IMG/VR virus record: IMGVR_UViG_3300042197_000966
Coordinates: 1 to 64,000 of that record
Length of the DNA stretch: 64,000 nt
Strand: one strand, 5' to 3'
Origin: a virus
Below, in pieces: positions 35,191 to 42,674 of the stretch. The notes below the pieces were generated by a model. That model was given only the letters and a program-made list of their open reading frames with translations. It was not told the DNA's origin and ran no database searches. How positions within the stretch are numbered: position 1 is the stretch's first letter; every line of letters starts with the position of its first letter. The position numbers and the translations under genes are program-made.

Positions 35191-35198
35191 TATAAATA
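35191..35198 (+). promoter_or_regulatory. Late promoter TATAAATA upstream of fibre gene
   Basis: A perfect eight-base T4 late motif ends 22 bases before the ATG at 35221. The short leader is followed by an imperfect inverted repeat (35208-35217 with 35246-35256) that places the start codon in its loop. Confidence 0.75.
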
Positions 35199-35220: not shown

Positions 35221-37161
35221 ATGGCGAATTCTGATAAGGACATCCTTATAACGCCTAATATTGGTCAGGCGGCACTACCAGAAATTAAATTTGTTGGAAC
35301 TGGAAACAGTCCTCGTTATATACGAGTAAATGATGATAATAGCCTTGCGTTCCTGAACAACTCTGGAACGGAAAGATTTTCTATTAATGAAGATTTAGTA
35401 AGAACCAGTTTATCTGCCAGTGGTAACTATAGAGTTAGAAACAGTTCTGGAACAACATTATTTAATGTAACTAATAGTACAAATGCTATTGAAATAGGTG
35501 GTGCTGGAACTGGTATCGCAATGGTTGGTGGAACAACTACAGCAACCTCTCCAAAACTAGCAATTGTCCAAGCAAGTGCTGGTTCAAGATATTCTCTACA
35601 AATTCAAACCACTGGCGGTATTGCTGATGGACAGTATGATGGTATTGGATTTGTTCAAGGTGCTGCTGGTGCAACACCTTTGGGTGGTATTCGTTGTGAA
35701 TTTAGAAACAGTGGTAGTCCAGATTTTGGATGGTATACAAGGAGTGGCGGAAGCACTGAGAGTATAAAATTAAAATTATGGAACAGTGGTAACTTATCAA
35801 TTGGAACTGCAGATCAAACAGAATATACTAGATTAAGTGTTCTAGGAGGTTCTGGTATTACAATTAGACCAGATACTTCATCTGCAAATAATCGTCATAT
35901 CTATTTTAGACAAGCAGCTAATAATAATGGATTTGTCATAAATCAAGATGATGCTTCTGTTGGTATGCTCTTCTTCAGAGCAATCAATAATGGATCAGAA
36001 ACAAATCCTCTATTAACATTAGATAGACCAAATCAGAGAGTTGGTGTTGGAAATTTTAGCACAAGTTCTAGACCAGGATTTACACTAGATGTAAATGGAG
36101 ATATTAATACTACTGGTCAATTTAGAAGAAATGGAGTAATTTTTAATCCACTTCCCGCGCAAAGTGCATCAACAATTGGTGCTGCATTAAGATCAGATGG
36201 AACTAATGCATTCTGGGATATTGGCGGTGGTGGAAGCGGCGGAGGAACATCTGCTCTTCCATACGCCGCAGAAGACAGATATAGAGTTGGTTTCCAAATC
36301 ACTCGCGGTTATGCAATGGCGGGATATAAAGATAGTACATCATATAAAAATGTTTGTTCTATCAATCATGCCAATAATACTTTAACAAATCATGGAGATC
36401 TTTTAACAAATGGTCAAGGTTATTGTGCTGGAGCACAAAATCTTTCCATGTTTGCATATGTTATGATCGCCGTAAATGGTGTTGGTGGAACTGGATCAAC
36501 ATGTTCTAAAATTAATATGAACACCAATGCAAATGCTGGTACTACCTCCATTAATAATAATAGATCTGCAACAAGTATAATGAGAAGAGATTTCAGATAT
36601 GCATATGTATATGGAGGTGGAGATTCTAGACCAGATAGATTTAATTTAAGTAATGATACTTCAGCGTTAGCTCCAAATGGCAATCCATCTGGAGATGAAA
36701 ACAATCCAGCTGGAGGATATGGTGCTACTTATGGATGGTCTAAGAAGAATGGTGGGTATGCATATTCTTGGGCAAATGAGACATATGCTGCTTGGCCAAA
36801 TAATCCTGGAACTGATGGATCCAATAAAACTATGAACGCTAGACATGGTTATAATTATTGGAATACAGGAGGAGGATATAGGACATCAGCAAATTTCTCC
36901 AAGAGAAGTTCATTTACTGGATCTGAAGCTACTCAAGTTGGTAAGTTTGAATGTGGAGAAGAAACATTCCACACTGGTATGAATAGAGGTTATATGTGTG
37001 GTATGTATGATGGAGCACAGAAAAACACTGGAGCAGTTTTAAATTATGCTGCTGAAACATTTACAGCAGATGCAAATATAAACAGAGTAGGACCACCTGG
37101 ATCGGCATCTGGAGCTGGTGCTGAATTTGGCACGGTTCTAGCAGGTTACGACGGAGTATAA
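35221..37161 (+). CDS. Tail fibre / receptor-binding candidate, 646 residues
   Basis: The N-terminal half (residues 1-330) is a fibre shaft-like series of strands with repeats such as 'NLSIGTADQTEYTRLSVL', 'TLDRPNQRVGVGNF' and 'GFTLDVNGDINTTGQFRRNG'. A glycine linker 'GGGGSGGG' (about 338-345) separates it from a C-terminal ~300 residues that are very rich in Tyr, Asn, Gly and Trp ('YAMAGYKDSTSYKNVCSIN', 'GGYAYSWANETYAAW'), somewhat like kelch-type blades. It has its own TATAAATA promoter and follows the giant fibre. The composition of the C-terminal part fits a receptor-binding tip; this is inference. It ends two bases before the next gene, which links it to the accessory operon. Confidence 0.72.
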   Translation: MANSDKDILITPNIGQAALPEIKFVGTGNSPRYIRVNDDNSLAFLNNSGTERFSINEDLVRTSLSASGNYRVRNSSGTTLFNVTNSTNAIEIGGAGTGIAMVGGTTTATSPKLAIVQASAGSRYSLQIQTTGGIADGQYDGIGFVQGAAGATPLGGIRCEFRNSGSPDFGWYTRSGGSTESIKLKLWNSGNLSIGTADQTEYTRLSVLGGSGITIRPDTSSANNRHIYFRQAANNNGFVINQDDASVGMLFFRAINNGSETNPLLTLDRPNQRVGVGNFSTSSRPGFTLDVNGDINTTGQFRRNGVIFNPLPAQSASTIGAALRSDGTNAFWDIGGGGSGGGTSALPYAAEDRYRVGFQITRGYAMAGYKDSTSYKNVCSINHANNTLTNHGDLLTNGQGYCAGAQNLSMFAYVMIAVNGVGGTGSTCSKINMNTNANAGTTSINNNRSATSIMRRDFRYAYVYGGGDSRPDRFNLSNDTSALAPNGNPSGDENNPAGGYGATYGWSKKNGGYAYSWANETYAAWPNNPGTDGSNKTMNARHGYNYWNTGGGYRTSANFSKRSSFTGSEATQVGKFECGEETFHTGMNRGYMCGMYDGAQKNTGAVLNYAAETFTADANINRVGPPGSASGAGAEFGTVLAGYDGV

Positions 37162-37163
37162 AA

Positions 37164-37916
37164 ATGAGAAAGTATTATCTAACAAATTCAAAAGAAGTAG
37201 CAAAATTATTTTCGTTTAAACCTCACGGCGAAATTTTAAATTGGCAGTTTTTCTCGGTAAATCAAATCGATAGTGAAAGAGTGAAAGAATTAGCTCCTCG
37301 TCATATTGAAGTAGAGAAAGACATTGCTGTCTGGGGAATGAGATCTTGGGGAGAAACCAGAGATGAAGTAACTGTATATAATACAGACATTGAAATTGTA
37401 AGTGAATTTGAGGGATTTGAAATCATTGCCACTGATCCAGAAAATTCACAAGGAAAAGTAAAAATTCCATTCACAGATAAAAGAAAAGATCTAGTAATAT
37501 CGGCAATGAAATTAGTTGCCAAGGTTATGATTGAAGAAGAGTATGATAATAAATATAGAAGATATCTTTCAAAAACTTCATTTTTAGAGAGAGAATGCTG
37601 GAAGTATCAACTCGAAGATGTATCGTTTAGAGATACCCTCGCAGAGTTAAAAGGAAAAGAAAAAGAAGAATTTGAAAATGTTGTAATTGCAAATAGTATT
37701 AGTTATGAAGACTATGTAAAAGGTTTATACATAGAGTGTCAGGCATTAAAGCAAGAATTTTACAATTGCGAAAATATTTCGGAATTGAGTATTCTATTTG
37801 AAGATAAATTTAATCTTCCAATGCAATCACATCTTGCTATCAAACTTGGTAGAGAGATTGTTAATGCCGATGAACCAAATACAAGAACAAATGTTGGAAT
37901 TGGTTTGAATTTTTAA
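37164..37916 (+). CDS. Unknown 250-residue protein at the head of the accessory operon
   Basis: No domain is recognised. The protein is soluble, charged and mostly helical after residue ~110, with an N-terminal 'MRKYYLTNSKEVAKLF' and a central acidic/hydrophobic stretch ('IVSEFEGFEIIATDP'). Aromatic residues are frequent (Trp, Tyr). It starts two bases after the fibre stop, with no separate promoter seen, so it is co-transcribed from the late promoter at 35.19 kb. The next gene follows after 17 bases. It could be a fibre assembly factor or part of the modification system behind it. Confidence 0.7.
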   Translation: MRKYYLTNSKEVAKLFSFKPHGEILNWQFFSVNQIDSERVKELAPRHIEVEKDIAVWGMRSWGETRDEVTVYNTDIEIVSEFEGFEIIATDPENSQGKVKIPFTDKRKDLVISAMKLVAKVMIEEEYDNKYRRYLSKTSFLERECWKYQLEDVSFRDTLAELKGKEKEEFENVVIANSISYEDYVKGLYIECQALKQEFYNCENISELSILFEDKFNLPMQSHLAIKLGREIVNADEPNTRTNVGIGLNF

Positions 37917-37933: not shown

Positions 37934-38731
37934 ATGTCAGATGAAAAAAAATTGGATGTAGAAACTATAAAAAATATTGCTCGTAGATGGGCGTCAGGAA
38001 TGTCTGATGAGCAATGTGATATGTATGTTATTCATTCTCAAGTTACAAAAGATAGACAAGTAAAACAGTGTCTATTGGAAATCGAAAATAGATGCCACAA
38101 TCTAGCAAAACTAGATATTGAAAAGAGAAGACATGATATAAACTATAAAAAACTTCAAGAAAAATTGGGCACAGAAAAAGATCCATATGAAAAAGATCTT
38201 CTTCAACTTGAATTGGATAGCATGGATTTAGATTATGATGTTTTTAATAGAAGAAAAATTACTCAAGAAAAAGAAATTCAATCATTTTTTAAATGGTTAA
38301 TTGAACAAGGATTTACAGCAGAAGAATTGGAGAAAAGATTGGAATATGATCCAGAAGAAGAAAGAAAATACTGGATTGCCAGAATGGGCAAACAAGCAGC
38401 TATGGATGTTGTATTCCAAGGAAGGATTGGAACTGGCAATCTAGACTCTATTGCTATGATGAAGGAGCAGGATCAGCAGGCAATTTTAGAAATTGCAATG
38501 CAGTATTCTGCATTATATAACGTTAGCGTCAATAAAATTCAACAGAAACTTGTTCCATATATTCAAGCATTAGAAGAAAGTTCTACAGGAGCATTACCAA
38601 CTTTTCATGGAATTGATGAAAACTTAGAAATAGGTTTGTTGAGTGAATTAAAAACTATTAAAGGTGAATTGAATGGAACCAAATCTTCATCCCCAAGTCT
38701 TCAGCTTACCTATAAACCCCAAGCTTCCTGA
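37934..38731 (+). CDS. Unknown 265-residue helical protein
   Basis: The product is charged and almost entirely helical, with a long Lys/Glu/Arg-rich stretch (about residues 55-125) likely to form a coiled coil ('LDIEKRRHDINYKKLQEKLG'). A later segment reads 'YWIARMGKQAAMDVVFQGRI'. No catalytic motif is evident. The C-terminal 59 bases overlap the start of the next gene in another frame, so the two are translationally coupled. Position between the fibre genes and the Fe-S/methyltransferase gene suggests an assembly or partner role, but its function is unknown to me. Confidence 0.7.
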   Translation: MSDEKKLDVETIKNIARRWASGMSDEQCDMYVIHSQVTKDRQVKQCLLEIENRCHNLAKLDIEKRRHDINYKKLQEKLGTEKDPYEKDLLQLELDSMDLDYDVFNRRKITQEKEIQSFFKWLIEQGFTAEELEKRLEYDPEEERKYWIARMGKQAAMDVVFQGRIGTGNLDSIAMMKEQDQQAILEIAMQYSALYNVSVNKIQQKLVPYIQALEESSTGALPTFHGIDENLEIGLLSELKTIKGELNGTKSSSPSLQLTYKPQAS

Positions 38732-40376
38732 AGATTTTGTAGATAATATCTTTATTCCATTTTTACAAAAGCATAAAGATTACATTTTTGATTTATATTT
38801 TACTTGCAGAATGCCTCCATTTGAGCAGGATGCTATGGGTGATATTTTCAACAATCCAAAAGATACCACTTTCAGTGCTTTATACATTTCAAATAAAACT
38901 GGAATACCACTATCTGCAACATTTAATAATATTTTTGTGAGACCAGATCAAGAAAATTTAGATCTATTCATAAAGAATTTTAGATATGTTTATGAGAGAG
39001 GTGTAAGAATTGCTACAATTCCACACACTTCATGGTTACTTACTGGACAAATACAAAAAGAGTTTCCAAATCTCTTCATAAAGAATACAATTCTGAGAGA
39101 AGTTACTAGACCCAACGAAATTGTTTCTTTAGCAAAAGCAGGATTTCATTATATCAATCTTGATAGAGATTTAATGCGCGATAGAGATCAATTACTTGCT
39201 ATTAAAGAAGCAAAAGATTATTGCTCTTCTATTGGCAAACCAGTTAAATTGTCTTTATTAGCAAATGAAAATTGTTGGGGTGGATGTCCCATCATGCCAG
39301 AGCATTATCATTATAACAATACAAGAAAATTAAACAATCCAGAATATTTTGGAGATGCTATAAGTAGAATTTCATGTTCCTCTTGGGATATATTGGATTC
39401 TTCATCCTCGTTAAAAGCAGCGATATTACCACCATGGAAAGAAGATTGGATTGAATTTTTTAATTTGGGAATTGATGTATTTAAAATGCATGGCAGAGAG
39501 ACTGCTACCAGATTAAAAGAAAGTATGGACATCATTGAAAACTGGGCAAATAATAACGAATATTTGTTTCCAAATTTTGATGAATTTATTCATGATATAC
39601 ACATAGATGATAAACCTATTGATATTTGGAGAGAAAAAATTAAAACATGTAAATTTGATTGTTGGAAATGCAACTATTGTGAATCTGTAATCAAATCACG
39701 AGTTAGAAAATATGAAAAAGATCACCATCCTTATGTTTATCATGTTTTAAAATCTTTCGAAAAATCTGGTAGAAATGAATCTAGTTTTAATCCAGAAAAA
39801 TATGACATTGAAGGATTAACTTCTGATCGAGTAAGACATTTTTTAAATAATCTTTGTTCAATGGATGGAGCAAAATATTTGGAAATAGGATCTTATGCTG
39901 GAAGTACATTTTTTGCTGCTACCATGAATAACAATGTTCAAGCTTATGCAGTCGATAATTATGTTTGCAATGTTTCTCCTGCTAGATTGGATGTTAAATG
40001 GAATGGATATTCAAAACCCAAAAGAGACTTTTTAAAAAATAGATCAAAATATGAAATAGGAAAATTAATTGATAAGCATGTAAATGCCATCAACCTAATG
40101 GATTTGGATAATACAAAAGTCAATATCATTTTTTATGATGCTAGTCATGAATATAAAGATCAAAAAAAGGCATTATCTACTCTCCTTCCATTAGCAGAAG
40201 ATACCTTTATTTTGGTTATTGATGACATTAATTTCAAAGATGTGTTAGAATCTGCAAAAGAATTTATATCCGATAATAATTTGACTTCATTATATGAAAA
40301 ACAATTATTCACCACGGTCTTTGAAGATTCTAATAGTTGGTGGAATGGATTATTTGTAGCAGTTTTACGAAAATGA
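38673..40376 (+). CDS. U32-like TIM-barrel Fe-S protein fused to a class I SAM methyltransferase
   Basis: Residues ~1-345 resemble the peptidase-U32/UbiV-type fold: barrel strands ('GVRIATIPHTSWLL', 'AGFHYINLDRDLMRDR') lead to 'LLANENCWGGCPIMPEHYHY', the Cys-x3-Cys-Pro...His motif of that superfamily. Candidate cluster cysteines are C201, C205, C235 and the group C326, C330, C333, C336 ('CKFDCWKCNYC'). Residues ~395-567 are a Methyltransf_24-like domain with motif I 'YLEIGSYAGSTFFAA' and 'IIFYDASHEYKDQKKAL'. In the known U32 family, UbiU/UbiV carry [4Fe-4S] and support O2-independent hydroxylation; whether this one does is not shown. The start overlaps the previous gene by 59 bases; its stop overlaps the next start in ATGA. 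The fusion is unusual, and the substrate is unknown. Confidence 0.72.
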   Translation: MEPNLHPQVFSLPINPKLPEDFVDNIFIPFLQKHKDYIFDLYFTCRMPPFEQDAMGDIFNNPKDTTFSALYISNKTGIPLSATFNNIFVRPDQENLDLFIKNFRYVYERGVRIATIPHTSWLLTGQIQKEFPNLFIKNTILREVTRPNEIVSLAKAGFHYINLDRDLMRDRDQLLAIKEAKDYCSSIGKPVKLSLLANENCWGGCPIMPEHYHYNNTRKLNNPEYFGDAISRISCSSWDILDSSSSLKAAILPPWKEDWIEFFNLGIDVFKMHGRETATRLKESMDIIENWANNNEYLFPNFDEFIHDIHIDDKPIDIWREKIKTCKFDCWKCNYCESVIKSRVRKYEKDHHPYVYHVLKSFEKSGRNESSFNPEKYDIEGLTSDRVRHFLNNLCSMDGAKYLEIGSYAGSTFFAATMNNNVQAYAVDNYVCNVSPARLDVKWNGYSKPKRDFLKNRSKYEIGKLIDKHVNAINLMDLDNTKVNIIFYDASHEYKDQKKALSTLLPLAEDTFILVIDDINFKDVLESAKEFISDNNLTSLYEKQLFTTVFEDSNSWWNGLFVAVLRK

Positions 40377-41023
40377 AATTATATGATTTATTTCCAAATC
40401 CAATATTTGGAATTGATTATCCAGAGCACGATAAATTAAAAAAAATTATTCTTCAAATTATGGAAGAGTGCAAAGATGATTTTGAATTTAATGGTCAATC
40501 ATCTAATTTATCACACTTAAAAAATAAATTGAACGAATCAATTTTGCATGAAGAGCAATTAAAAGAATTTAAAGACTGGGTTGAAGAAACATGCTCTGAT
40601 TATGTTACAGATTGCTTGGGTTATAATCTCCAAGAAAAAATGATGGTTACAGATAGTTGGTTAAATAAATGCGACAAAGGAGGATCACAACATCCTCATT
40701 ATCATTCAAACTCATATGTTTCTGGAACATATTATGTAAATTTTCAAGATGGTCATGCTCCTTTAATGTTTAACAAAAGATCTGCATTATTATTTCCAAA
40801 TCATGCATCGATAGTTTTACCAGAGAATGATAATTTTATAACCAAGTACAATACAGATTCTGCTGTATATCCAGAGGAAGGTGAGTTATACCTTTGGCAA
40901 TCTCAAATGACGCATAGTGTTCCAGAAAATGGACTTGATAATCGAATTAGTTTGTCTATGAATTTTATGCCAACTGTTGTAAGCAATACAAGATATGGAT
41001 TTAGAGTAGAGTATTTATCATGA
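40373..41023 (+). CDS. 2OG-Fe(II) oxygenase-like protein (TIGR02466 type), first copy
   Basis: This 216-residue protein has the layout of the TIGR02466 family of 2-oxoglutarate/Fe(II) dioxygenases common in marine T4-like phages. 'QHPHYHSNSYVSGTYYVNF' supplies the H-x-H metal site (H109/H111 or H107/H109), and 'WQSQMTHSVPENGLDNRISL' supplies the distal His (H181) and the 2OG-binding Arg (R191). The N-terminus 'LFPNPIFGIDYPEHD' is typical. The start was set at 40373 because ATGA overlaps the upstream stop; an in-frame upstream extension is inside the preceding gene. The likely activity is hydroxylation of a protein or small molecule. Neighbours suggest a joint pathway with the Fe-S proteins, but the substrate is not shown. 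Confidence 0.82.
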   Translation: MKLYDLFPNPIFGIDYPEHDKLKKIILQIMEECKDDFEFNGQSSNLSHLKNKLNESILHEEQLKEFKDWVEETCSDYVTDCLGYNLQEKMMVTDSWLNKCDKGGSQHPHYHSNSYVSGTYYVNFQDGHAPLMFNKRSALLFPNHASIVLPENDNFITKYNTDSAVYPEEGELYLWQSQMTHSVPENGLDNRISLSMNFMPTVVSNTRYGFRVEYLS

Positions 41024-41805
41024 TAGATTTTAATGATATATTGAAACTTTTTCCCCAGGATGTGTGGGATATTGGATTGTTGAAGGGCGTTGAGTATAAA
41101 AAAGTATTGAATTCTCCAGTAAAGGCAGCATGTCATTTTAAAGGTGAAATGCTGACCAACAGATTGCAGGCTCCATATCAGTCAAGTAATACTCTGGTAT
41201 TTGCTAGAATGTCTGAACATGCTGCTGACTATTCTTTATATGAAGAAGCAACAAATTACTTATCCGAATACATAAAAGAAAATAAATGTGTTCAGGTATA
41301 TTTAAATTTTAAAGAGGCGGCTATACAATCTGGATTGGGAGTGAGAGCAAAAAATTCATTGATATATAATAAAAAATTTGGATTTCAATGTAAGATATGT
41401 GCCTTTACATTTTTAGAAGATCTGATTAATGCCCCAGAACCACATATAAACAATGGACAGTTAGATCTTTGTGATGGATGTAATGATTGCATAAAAAATT
41501 GTCCAGCTAATGCAATCCATGAAGATTTTATTGATGGCAATGCATGTGACACTTTTGTTGGTGTTGGTAATAGTTCCGAACAGTTATCAATTAAATGGTT
41601 CTGGTATGAATTGGTAAAACCAGATATATCAAGAGAAGTTGTAGAATCTTGGAATACACTAGAAGATTTTCAAAATATTGTATGGACAAATGGATATGAA
41701 ATGACACCAAATGGTTTGATGAAAGATGGTGAAGTAATTCCAATGCCTCTTTGTAGAGTGTGTCAGCAACAACCAAAATGTAGTAAAGTTCCTATAATGT
41801 TATGA
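41020..41805 (+). CDS. QueG/reductive-dehalogenase-like Fe-S protein
   Basis: The 261-residue protein has 'AAIQSGLGVRAKNSLIY', matching the A-x-x-A-G-L-G-x-x-G-K-N signature of epoxyqueuosine reductase QueG and reductive dehalogenases. This is followed by a ferredoxin motif C151-x2-C154-x2-C157-x3-C161-P. A second cluster could use C176 plus C245, C248 and C254, paralleling the two clusters of QueG. QueG proteins are about 350-380 residues and have a catalytic Asp upstream of the G-L-G motif; here that stretch reads 'VQVYLNFKEA', so the usual Asp-x-x-Pro is not evident. It is therefore a shortened divergent relative, possibly an electron-transfer or cobalamin-independent reductase. ATGA overlaps couple it to both oxygenase genes. 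The substrate is unknown. Confidence 0.7.
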   Translation: MIDFNDILKLFPQDVWDIGLLKGVEYKKVLNSPVKAACHFKGEMLTNRLQAPYQSSNTLVFARMSEHAADYSLYEEATNYLSEYIKENKCVQVYLNFKEAAIQSGLGVRAKNSLIYNKKFGFQCKICAFTFLEDLINAPEPHINNGQLDLCDGCNDCIKNCPANAIHEDFIDGNACDTFVGVGNSSEQLSIKWFWYELVKPDISREVVESWNTLEDFQNIVWTNGYEMTPNGLMKDGEVIPMPLCRVCQQQPKCSKVPIML

Positions 41806-42422
41806 TTTTAAATGTCGGACCATGGGAAATTAATCCATGTTTTTCCATGCCAGTATCATCTAAAAACATAGATCCAAGCATTAGTTTTCTTCTTAAAACT
41901 ATGTGCAAACGTGTTGAATGGATTGAAGATAATACATATACTGGAGTAAATGGATTTTATTCTAAAGATAGAAATGTTTTAGATTGTGATCAAGAAATTA
42001 AAAATGGATTTGTTTCTATATGCAAGGATTATATTGTTAATGCTCTTTGTTATGATACAGAGATACAGATAACAACTTCTTGGTTTACAAAAACTATAAA
42101 GGGAGGACATTGTGTTGATCACACACACTGCAATTCTTGGTTTAGTGCAGTTGTCTATTTTGGTGAATATGATGAAAATTCTTCGCCACTAGTATTTTCC
42201 ACAAATCCTCCACAAATAATGGTTGGATCAAAAAATTCAAATTTCTTAAACTCTTATAATTTGACAATAGAACCAATAAAGAATAAAATAATTATATTTC
42301 CTAGTAATCTGCGGCATAAAGTTATGCCGCACAAATCAGATATTCCAAGATATTCACTGTCTTTTAATATCATGCCACTAGGATTAGTTGGAGAAGGAGA
42401 TTCTTCTTATCAATATAAATAA
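41802..42422 (+). CDS. 2OG-Fe(II) oxygenase-like protein, second divergent copy
   Basis: This 206-residue protein has the same architecture as the oxygenase two genes upstream but little sequence identity. H107-x-H109 lies in 'GHCVDHTHCNSWFSAVVYF', H172 in 'IIIFPSNLRHKVMPHK', and R183 in 'IPRYSLSFNIMP'. These are the expected Fe(II) and 2OG ligands of TIGR02466-like enzymes. Its start codon overlaps the stop of the QueG-like gene (ATGA). It ends the accessory operon, and TATAAATA for the next gene overlaps its last codons. The second enzyme could act on the product of the first or on a different site of the same target; both are guesses. Confidence 0.78.
   Translation: MILNVGPWEINPCFSMPVSSKNIDPSISFLLKTMCKRVEWIEDNTYTGVNGFYSKDRNVLDCDQEIKNGFVSICKDYIVNALCYDTEIQITTSWFTKTIKGGHCVDHTHCNSWFSAVVYFGEYDENSSPLVFSTNPPQIMVGSKNSNFLNSYNLTIEPIKNKIIIFPSNLRHKVMPHKSDIPRYSLSFNIMPLGLVGEGDSSYQYK
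42414..42421 (+). promoter_or_regulatory. Late promoter TATAAATA of the small coiled-coil gene
   Basis: A perfect late motif overlaps the final codons and stop of the second oxygenase gene and lies 29 bases before the ATG at 42450. It would let the next mini-gene be made independently of the accessory operon. Confidence 0.7.
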
Positions 42423-42632: not shown

Positions 42633-42638
42633 TCCCAG

Positions 42639-42674
42639 ATCCCTTCTTACTAAATATGTAAGAAGGGATTTTTT
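42639..42674 (+). terminator. Strong rho-independent terminator with promoter motif in its loop
   Basis: A perfect 12-bp stem (42639-42650 with 42658-42669) and a seven-base loop are followed by a T run (42669-42674). It closes the transcript of the small coiled-coil gene. The loop is TAAATAT, so with the last stem base it reads CTAAATA, a late promoter motif for gp13. Confidence 0.9.
42650..42656 (+). promoter_or_regulatory. Putative late promoter CTAAATA inside the terminator loop
   Basis: The motif occupies the loop of the terminator and lies 26 bases before the gp13 ATG. By T4 spacing, RNA would begin near 42663-42665 in the 3' arm, so the gp13 mRNA would lack the 5' arm and escape the hairpin. 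Confidence 0.6.

Follow-up and report, generated by a model that had tools for sequence, protein, structure and literature searches.

Gene order at the locus

We analysed a 64,000-nucleotide (nt) stretch of viral DNA, positions 1 to 64,000 of the 76,225-base IMG/VR virus record IMGVR_UViG_3300042197_000966 and hereafter the window, in which a gene for a predicted fusion of a U32-like barrel with a methyltransferase (gene A) lies behind a tail-fibre-like gene. The neck genes of the record are of the T4-like cyanophage type. On the plus strand, the order is fibre-like gene (fib646), g250, g265, A, B, C, D, a small protein and the neck genes. An earlier note on this DNA, made from sequence alone, had described A to D as one unit coupled by ATGA overlaps; the four genes are real, their open reading frames (ORFs) span 38673–42422 as that note had given them, and such overlaps are found at all three junctions (A/B, B/C and C/D). 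The boundary of the unit had to be moved, as the co-transcribed-looking block starts earlier, at the fibre gene (35221). The features are as follows, with 2OG standing for 2-oxoglutarate.

35191..35198, plus strand: T4-type late-promoter-like TATAAATA, an exact match 30 nt 5′ of the fibre gene start
35221..37161, plus strand: fib646, tail-fibre-like protein (phrog_1417; relatives in T4-GC 351, 'sericin 1 precursor-like')
37164..37916, plus strand: g250, constant partner (phrog_1604; T4-GC 352)
37934..38731, plus strand: g265, constant partner, its 3′ end sharing 59 nt with A (phrog_1409; T4-GC 353)
38673..40376, plus strand: gene A, 567 residues (phrog_1458; T4-GC 354)
Predicted layout of A: U32-like TIM barrel at about residues 5–281; Cys tail CxxxCxxCxxC at 326–336; class I O-methyltransferase at about 363–567
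40373..41023, plus strand: gene B, 2OG-FeII_Oxy_5 oxygenase, with its ATG at 40373
41020..41805, plus strand: gene C, 261 residues, predicted QueG/RdhA/CblC-fold protein with eight invariant Cys (151, 154, 157, 161, 176, 245, 248 and 254)
41802..42422, plus strand: gene D, 206 residues, second 2OG-FeII_Oxy_5 oxygenase
42414..42421, plus strand: second late-promoter-like TATAAATA, 5′ of s63 and the neck genes, the next transcription unit

The name 'fibre' for fib646 is taken from its relatives and position, the function field of its PHROG being empty. Gene A starts 59 nt within g265 and is preceded by a AAAGGTGA stretch that resembles a ribosome-binding site. Because a conserved FSLPINPK block of A (F10 and others invariant in 60 aligned rows) begins inside the g265/A overlap, this early start is not an artefact of ORF calling; in S-CAM4, P-SSM4 and S-RIM2, the deposited start of A is further downstream and probably omits the block. 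The same arrangement recurs in other contigs and is therefore more than chance. A terminator-like stem of 14 pairs (42637–42671) precedes the homologue of neck gene 13.

Late-promoter motifs, a constant block and exchangeable enzymes

The T4 late motif [ACT]ATAAATA was scored from −90 nt to +30 nt of each gene start. It was present at 31 of 42 fib, 22 of 47 neck13 and 12 of 36 s63 starts. At the inner genes, which serve as controls for base composition, the counts were 0 of 80 for A, 0 of 60 for g250, 1 of 64 for g265, 0 of 20 for C, 2 of 85 for 2OG genes, 0 of 138 for other oxygenase-type genes and 0 of 13 for the halogenase, all from related loci that are hence not independent trials. In the window, the motifs at 35191 and 42414 enclose the block from the fibre gene to D. 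Exact TATAAATA occurs 5 times in these 64 kb against 6.4 expected, no excess over chance; with one mismatch, it occurs 27 times against 33.4 expected, and a Sigma-70-type promoter scan of the window returned 45 matches against 47.1 expected. Because the window count is not above chance, the late-promoter argument rests on placement across loci. In passages of Sullivan et al. 2010 (PMC3037559), late promoters of T4-like cyanophages were searched for with TATAAAT. As the late motif precedes fib and the next unit, and not the inner genes, the block and its enzyme cassette appear to be transcribed late, as a single unit.

The distribution of A was then compared with that of its neighbours. The A query matched 123 of 50,697 phage records, whose names contain Synechococcus (77), Cyanophage (38) or Prochlorococcus (8). 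The g265 query (window copy) and the g250 query (P-SSM4 copy) each matched 123 of the 50,697 with the same 77/38/8 breakdown, an agreement of totals and names rather than of record-by-record identity, and the fibre query (P-SSM4 copy) matched 142. In IMG/VR, at least 582 candidate stretches hold relatives of A. In 54 of the 58 distinct A copies that have 2 kb upstream, g265 lies within 4.5 kb of A; among the 42 copies with 4.5 kb upstream, g250 is found in 41, g265 in 41 and the fibre in 35. Pairwise distances of A follow those of g265 (Spearman 0.77, 72 loci) and g250 (0.78, 64 loci), with values of 0.36 for the fibre C-terminus (55 loci) and 0.27 for neck13 (46 loci). Given neck13, the partial correlations are 0.68 for g265, 0.62 for g250 and 0.40 for the fibre C-terminus (37, 33 and 28 loci, respectively).

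Three related loci (L037, L038 and L039) carry two fib–g250–g265–A modules in tandem, with different nearest relatives. All four genes of the first module are nearest to those of P-SSM4 and Syn19 (L003 and L004). In the second module, A, g265 and g250 are nearest to L034, and the fibre is nearest to L089 and then to L034. Linkage alone could raise the correlations; if the genes had no functional connection, however, tandem modules with different ancestry would be harder to account for. Judged from gene order and sequence relatedness, A makes up a constant block with g250, g265 and the fibre-like gene, and this block moves as one module. Among cellular genome contigs, A relatives were found in 2 of 87 candidate stretches, both on contigs of metagenome-assembled genomes (MAGs), one of them titled Tara Red Sea. 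These contigs (L158 and L159, binned as Dehalococcoidia and Euryarchaeota) hold g250, g265 and A together, L158 with the fibre as well; because these partners adjoin A, the likeliest explanation for both contigs is cyanophage DNA that ended up in MAG bins.

The enzymes beside A were profiled in the 37 loci with a complete g265-to-neck13 interval. At least one tailoring enzyme is present in 32 of them, with 0 to 7 oxygenase-type genes per locus; counting only clusters above the Pfam oxygenase cut-off, an oxygenase is present in 30 and some tailoring enzyme still in 32. A halogenase homologue occurs in 4 loci, and the enzymes are placed between g265 and A, rather than 3′ of A, in 3. The 166 interval genes besides A comprise 94 oxygenase-type genes, 25 s63, 14 small c14, 7 C, 4 halogenase and 22 others. 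As far as family assignments tell, A is accompanied by interchangeable enzymes: oxygenases of the Fe(II)/2OG type, a homologue of flavin halogenases or a protein with a cobalamin-type fold. The earlier note had read A to D as one fixed pathway. We reject this reading, since neither C nor the second oxygenase is always present: the exact set of A, 2OG, C and 2OG is found in only 5 of the 37 loci, C occurs in 7 of them, and A is without a tailoring enzyme in 5. That note had also held that independent occurrence of the families would speak against it; C and the second oxygenase do occur independently, whereas A stays with the fibre block.

A variable interval of this kind might also be an insertion hot spot, a permissive gap beside the fibre in which accessory genes of unrelated function gather. 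The highly variable content beside A and the presence of C elsewhere speak for this explanation, but a single kind of protein dominates the gap, 94 of its 166 genes being oxygenase-type, and A itself is constant, so that we consider it quite improbable.

Both B and D score 59.9 bits against 2OG-FeII_Oxy_5 (Pfam cut-off 27 bits; B scored without its first residue), and against TIGR02466 B lies above the cut-off and D below it. In this 2OG-Fe(II) oxygenase family, the HxH motif and a later His are putative iron ligands. Of 94 distinct members of the B/D family, all 94 retain HxH and 93 have the later His and Arg. B and D are also the only matches in the window to the eight cassette oxygenase profiles. 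The motif H-x-D/E...H...R is found in most members of clusters 13 (25/27), 15 (27/28), 16 (18/18), 17 (17/17), 28 (10/10) and 66 (3/3) and is rare in clusters 12 (5/27) and 18 (1/14); on visual inspection, the Arg is the sole element missing from one cluster-12 member, and a cluster-18 member has HxH. Representatives of clusters 12, 13 and 28 passed the Pfam oxygenase cut-off, those of 15 and 16 failed it, and those of 18 and 66 had no Pfam match. The halogenase cluster matches Trp_halogenase at 1.8e-98.

Several names attached to cassette genes were noted in passing. Genes called 'DNA endonuclease V' (T4-GC 100; denV) lie beside A in P-SSM4 (L003:7689-8195) and Syn19 (L004:7704-8198). The P-SSM4 copy falls in oxygenase-type cluster 15, some members of which match 2OG-FeII_Oxy_3 below the cut-off, and phrog_274 (denV) is also matched by cassette oxygenases; the two copies themselves had no Pfam match. 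The denV name of these cassette genes is likely to be a misannotation. Oxygenase-type cassette proteins also match phrog_2954 and phrog_3531 ('ferrochelatase'); this name may be wrong, or the PHROG family may include a fusion. In many loci, a protein of about 86 residues (cluster c14) is encoded between g265 and A; its copy at L088:2099-2356 had no PHROG match. A protein present in some cassettes (L124:8353-9603) matches Fibrinogen_C weakly, below the cut-off, and is possibly a fibre.

Proteins A and C

The C-terminal half of A matches Methyltransf_24 above the Pfam cut-off (31.7 versus 26.3 bits), and six of its residues, at the S-adenosylmethionine motif and Asp positions, are invariant in the 60-row alignment (G406, G410, D428, D489, D517 and D518). 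The best fold matches of this half are TomG and TrmR (Z 16.6), with catechol-type O-methyltransferases at about 16.6; the tRNA-bound form of TrmR (5zw4) is among the top folds, and small-molecule O-methyltransferases are also among the matches. The AlphaFold model of full-length A has a mean pLDDT (predicted local distance difference test) of 82, with residues 201–218 and 222–249 below 50. In this model, residues 5–281 align to the U32 protein Mk0906 (5d88) with Z 14.8 and a root-mean-square deviation of 3.7 over 195 aligned residues. By title, we take Mk0906 to be the sole non-methyltransferase among the 50 structure-comparison rows for A.

Sequence comparisons were also performed on the N-terminal half. 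Pfam PF01136 gave no match at E ≤ 1. In hhalign, the probabilities were 0.1% against UbiV, 4.0% against UbiU and 3.9% against a 7-row U32 set (P 0.011), the register being kept, if weakly. A profile of this half gave two chance matches only against Protein Data Bank (PDB) sequences (E 1.4 and 1.6), and whole A gave no match there. BLAST of TrhP and UbiU against the phage records returned 44 and 42 matches, with cyanophages absent from the name counts. Because these comparisons gave no significant match, the U32 claim for A rests on fold, and the N-terminal half is best described as U32-like, not as proven U32. Short motifs are consistent with this description. Seven Cys of A are invariant in the 60 rows (201, 205, 235, 326, 330, 333 and 336), and we infer an iron–sulfur (Fe–S) cluster; the KMHGR of A (271–275) resembles KIEGR, present in six of seven aligned U32 rows. 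In TrhP, according to passages of PMC6599085, Glu E162 and Cys C170 and C177 are essential. Set against these residues, C201 and C205 of A are invariant and the Glu position is taken, in a weak alignment, by an invariant S194.

Separately, the A model matches BFVD entry A0A3G3MCS7, a 'Peptidase' of Escherichia phage OLB35 (E 1.8e-8, target TM 0.63), which on this model comparison is a possible second phage U32-like lineage. In phage V5 (rV5; guessed to be related), no gene named U32 was found in two inspected stretches outside bases 100001–137947.

For C, Foldseek on the model ranks epoxyqueuosine reductase first (E 3e-6), and the fold comparison (VIA) gives, over nearly the whole chain, Z values of 11.9 for QueG, 10.9 for RdhA PceA and 8.4 for CblC MMACHC. 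The eight Cys of C are invariant in 20 rows, and the same set was read in Escherichia coli QueG; the profile alignment between the two covers the first five Cys positions only. Other features set C apart from QueG. C scores 34.0 bits against the QueG equivalog TIGR00276, well under the NCBIfam cut-off of 200, and it is shorter than QueG (261 versus 379 residues), the C-terminal part of QueG being absent. The catalytic loop of QueG carries an Asp (title of entry 5t8y). When this loop, VDSAPILER, was placed on C by eye, as the profile alignment begins downstream of it, it fell at an invariant Y94-x-NFKE before the GLG motif, a stretch with no invariant Asp in the 20-row alignment. C is thus QueG-like, as a predicted member of the cobalamin superfamily, at fold level only. 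The earlier note's QueG-like reductase stands in its fold, and not in its catalytic-loop Asp or TIGR00276 score. Of the families that note had named, the methyltransferase, the 2OG oxygenases and the QueG-like protein were all recovered, and U32 at fold level only.

The C query gave no match to the phage records at 1e-5; a search with a relative of C at E up to 1 returned only partial, weak matches, in 11 of 50,697 records. In IMG/VR, a single sequence recovered C relatives at 12 loci and an alignment recovered them at 33. Among 22 distinct C copies, 8 occur with A, every one directly 3′ of a B-type gene. The other 14 are in loci without A; for 8 of them an oxygenase-type gene lies no more than 3 kb away, for the other 6 it does not, and several of the latter are cut by contig ends. 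Two of the six (L016:2332-3141 and L144:5959-6768) follow a gene of one shared cluster, whose member in L016, the locus tested, encodes the small chain of ribonucleotide reductase (PF00268, 3e-55).

An alternative reading has tRNA as the target. Passages of PMC6599085 describe U32 proteins as required for RNA hydroxylation and B. subtilis as coupling two of them with the O-methyltransferase TrmR in one operon, yrrMNO. By this explanation, A would perform the TrhP1/TrhP2 and TrmR steps (U34 to ho5U34 to mo5U34) and C would act on a queuosine-type base. The domains of A do match both enzyme types of that operon, TrmR including its 5zw4 form, and C shares both the fold and the eight Cys of QueG. 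By contrast, the late-promoter placement and the constant fibre block do not suit a tRNA enzyme, there is no tRNA gene in the window, and the methyltransferase folds match small-molecule enzymes equally well. The Ser194 that replaces the essential Glu (in a weak alignment) and the lack of an invariant Asp before GLG in the shorter C also tell against it, and we regard wobble modification as unlikely.

Candidate target and known systems

The analogy of chemistry points to tRNA as a possible target, whereas the genomic context points to the fibre. We prefer the fibre because of the late placement, the constant fibre partners and the many oxygenase-type genes. The reading that we favour, at about even confidence, is that fib646–g250–g265–A–B–C–D is a late, fibre-linked virion-tailoring operon, with the fibre or its companions as target. 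We infer the chemistry and target of A and of the exchangeable enzymes as follows. The Fe–S (U32-type) barrel of A would hydroxylate residues of the fibre, or of g250 or g265 acting with the fibre, and the C-terminal domain would O-methylate residues of these proteins during virion assembly; hydroxylation followed by O-methylation is the natural reading of A because it fuses the same two kinds of protein as the U32 proteins and TrmR. B and D, replaced in relatives by other oxygenases or a halogenase, would add further modifications, and C might contribute a cobalamin/Fe–S redox step. Swapping of the accessory enzymes would then alter the host-binding surface chemically. The earlier note had listed fibre proteins as a suspected target, a suspicion that gains support from the late-promoter placement, the co-occurrence of g250 and g265 and the tandem whole modules.

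Several observations weigh against this reading. The case for fibre modification is indirect. The U32 assignment of A consists of one fold match of its model and short motifs, without a significant sequence match, and U32 is absent from the best 50 Foldseek rows for A, which do include several entries for a different TIM barrel, pyruvate kinase. A follows the fibre C-terminus less well than it follows g250 and g265, and, as these genes are adjacent, the correlations partly reflect physical linkage. Cluster 17, counted here as oxygenase-type, is called minor coat protein by PHROGs and matches DUF6445 in Pfam. Five of the 37 complete loci have A without any tailoring enzyme, and C also occurs away from A, outside the cassette. 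Finally, A lies apart from g265 in S-ShM2, with petE and gnd among the intervening genes.

The S-ShM2 arrangement speaks for a role in host metabolism, in which 2OG oxygenases would alter 2-oxoglutarate and nitrogen signalling, as passages of Sullivan et al. 2010 (PMC3037559) propose for cyanophage 2OG oxygenases generally. Such a role leaves A, the halogenase, C, the fibre block and the absence of own promoter motifs unexplained, and we judge it very improbable. A further explanation is the tailoring of a small molecule or polysaccharide, by which a secondary metabolite would be made or a capsule decorated. Iyer et al. 2021 (PMC7824862), in the passages concerned, predict this for another cyanophage cluster with overlapping enzyme classes, and small-molecule O-methyltransferases are found among the fold matches of A. 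By contrast, no carbamoyltransferase or sugar enzyme was found in the 10 cluster representatives searched, and late expression with the fibre gene and the constant g250 and g265 partners also speak against it, so that we assign this explanation a low probability.

Fibre tailoring could be part of a modular diversification of receptor-binding fibres, a broader proposal that we put forward tentatively and with more doubt than belief. The fused U32-type, oxygen-independent hydroxylase/O-methyltransferase would place a core mark together with g250 and g265, and the exchangeable enzymes would add lineage-specific marks. If true, phages would have a route besides sequence change and glycosylation to vary the host-binding surface, and U32 chemistry would extend beyond RNA and ubiquinone. 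To our knowledge, A would be the first U32 enzyme acting on protein. Some cyanophage 2OG oxygenases and tryptophan-halogenase homologues, previously listed as host-metabolism genes, would gain a testable substrate in the fibre, and an old question of cyanophage genomics would be answered; the role of PrnA is left open in the passages of the earlier cyanophage literature concerned.

In open-licence full texts, as far as their passages go, no description was found of the fibre–g250–g265–A block, of a U32–methyltransferase fusion or of the exchangeable cassette, and in the cyanophage isolates examined most annotations of A and its partners read 'hypothetical'. The same genes are present in isolates P-HM2, P-SSM4 and Syn19 as T4-GC 351–354 with 2OG-Fe(II) oxygenases and PrnA; the passages of Sullivan et al. 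2010 (PMC3037559) treat the 2OG enzymes as host-metabolism genes and T4-GC 351–354 not as a fibre-linked unit. The cluster of Iyer et al. 2021 also contains a halogenase, 2OG enzymes and O-methyltransferases, but in the passages of PMC7824862 it is carbamoyltransferase-centred and read as metabolite or capsule decoration, with no fibre link given.

At the level of single proteins, A resembles the peptidase U32 family (PF01136: UbiU, UbiV, TrhP, RlhA and Mk0906) in its barrel fold, its KMHGR/KIEGR motif and a Cys pair after a strand, and differs in its Cys spacing, the extra CxxxCxxCxxC tail, the Ser in place of the essential Glu (weak alignment) and the lack of a Pfam match. C resembles QueG, RdhA and CblC (MMACHC) in its whole-chain fold, with eight Cys as for two [4Fe–4S] clusters; unlike QueG, it lacks the Asp loop and the C-terminal part and scores far under the family cut-offs. 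The closest counterpart in chemistry is B. subtilis yrrMNO (TrmR with TrhP1/TrhP2; ho5U34/mo5U34), which, on the passages of PMC6599085, likewise pairs U32-type hydroxylation with a catechol-type O-methyltransferase; A differs in that one chain contains both domains, in that Pfam has no match for the U32 half, and in its link to an apparent late fibre operon. The closest counterpart in concept is the viral prolyl 4-hydroxylase found with collagen-like virion proteins (PBCV-1, and Baltic viruses in passages of PMC9301287). That case involves a single oxygenase in another gene block, without a U32/methyltransferase core, but it shares with our reading the concept of a virus-encoded hydroxylase acting on the virus's own structural protein.

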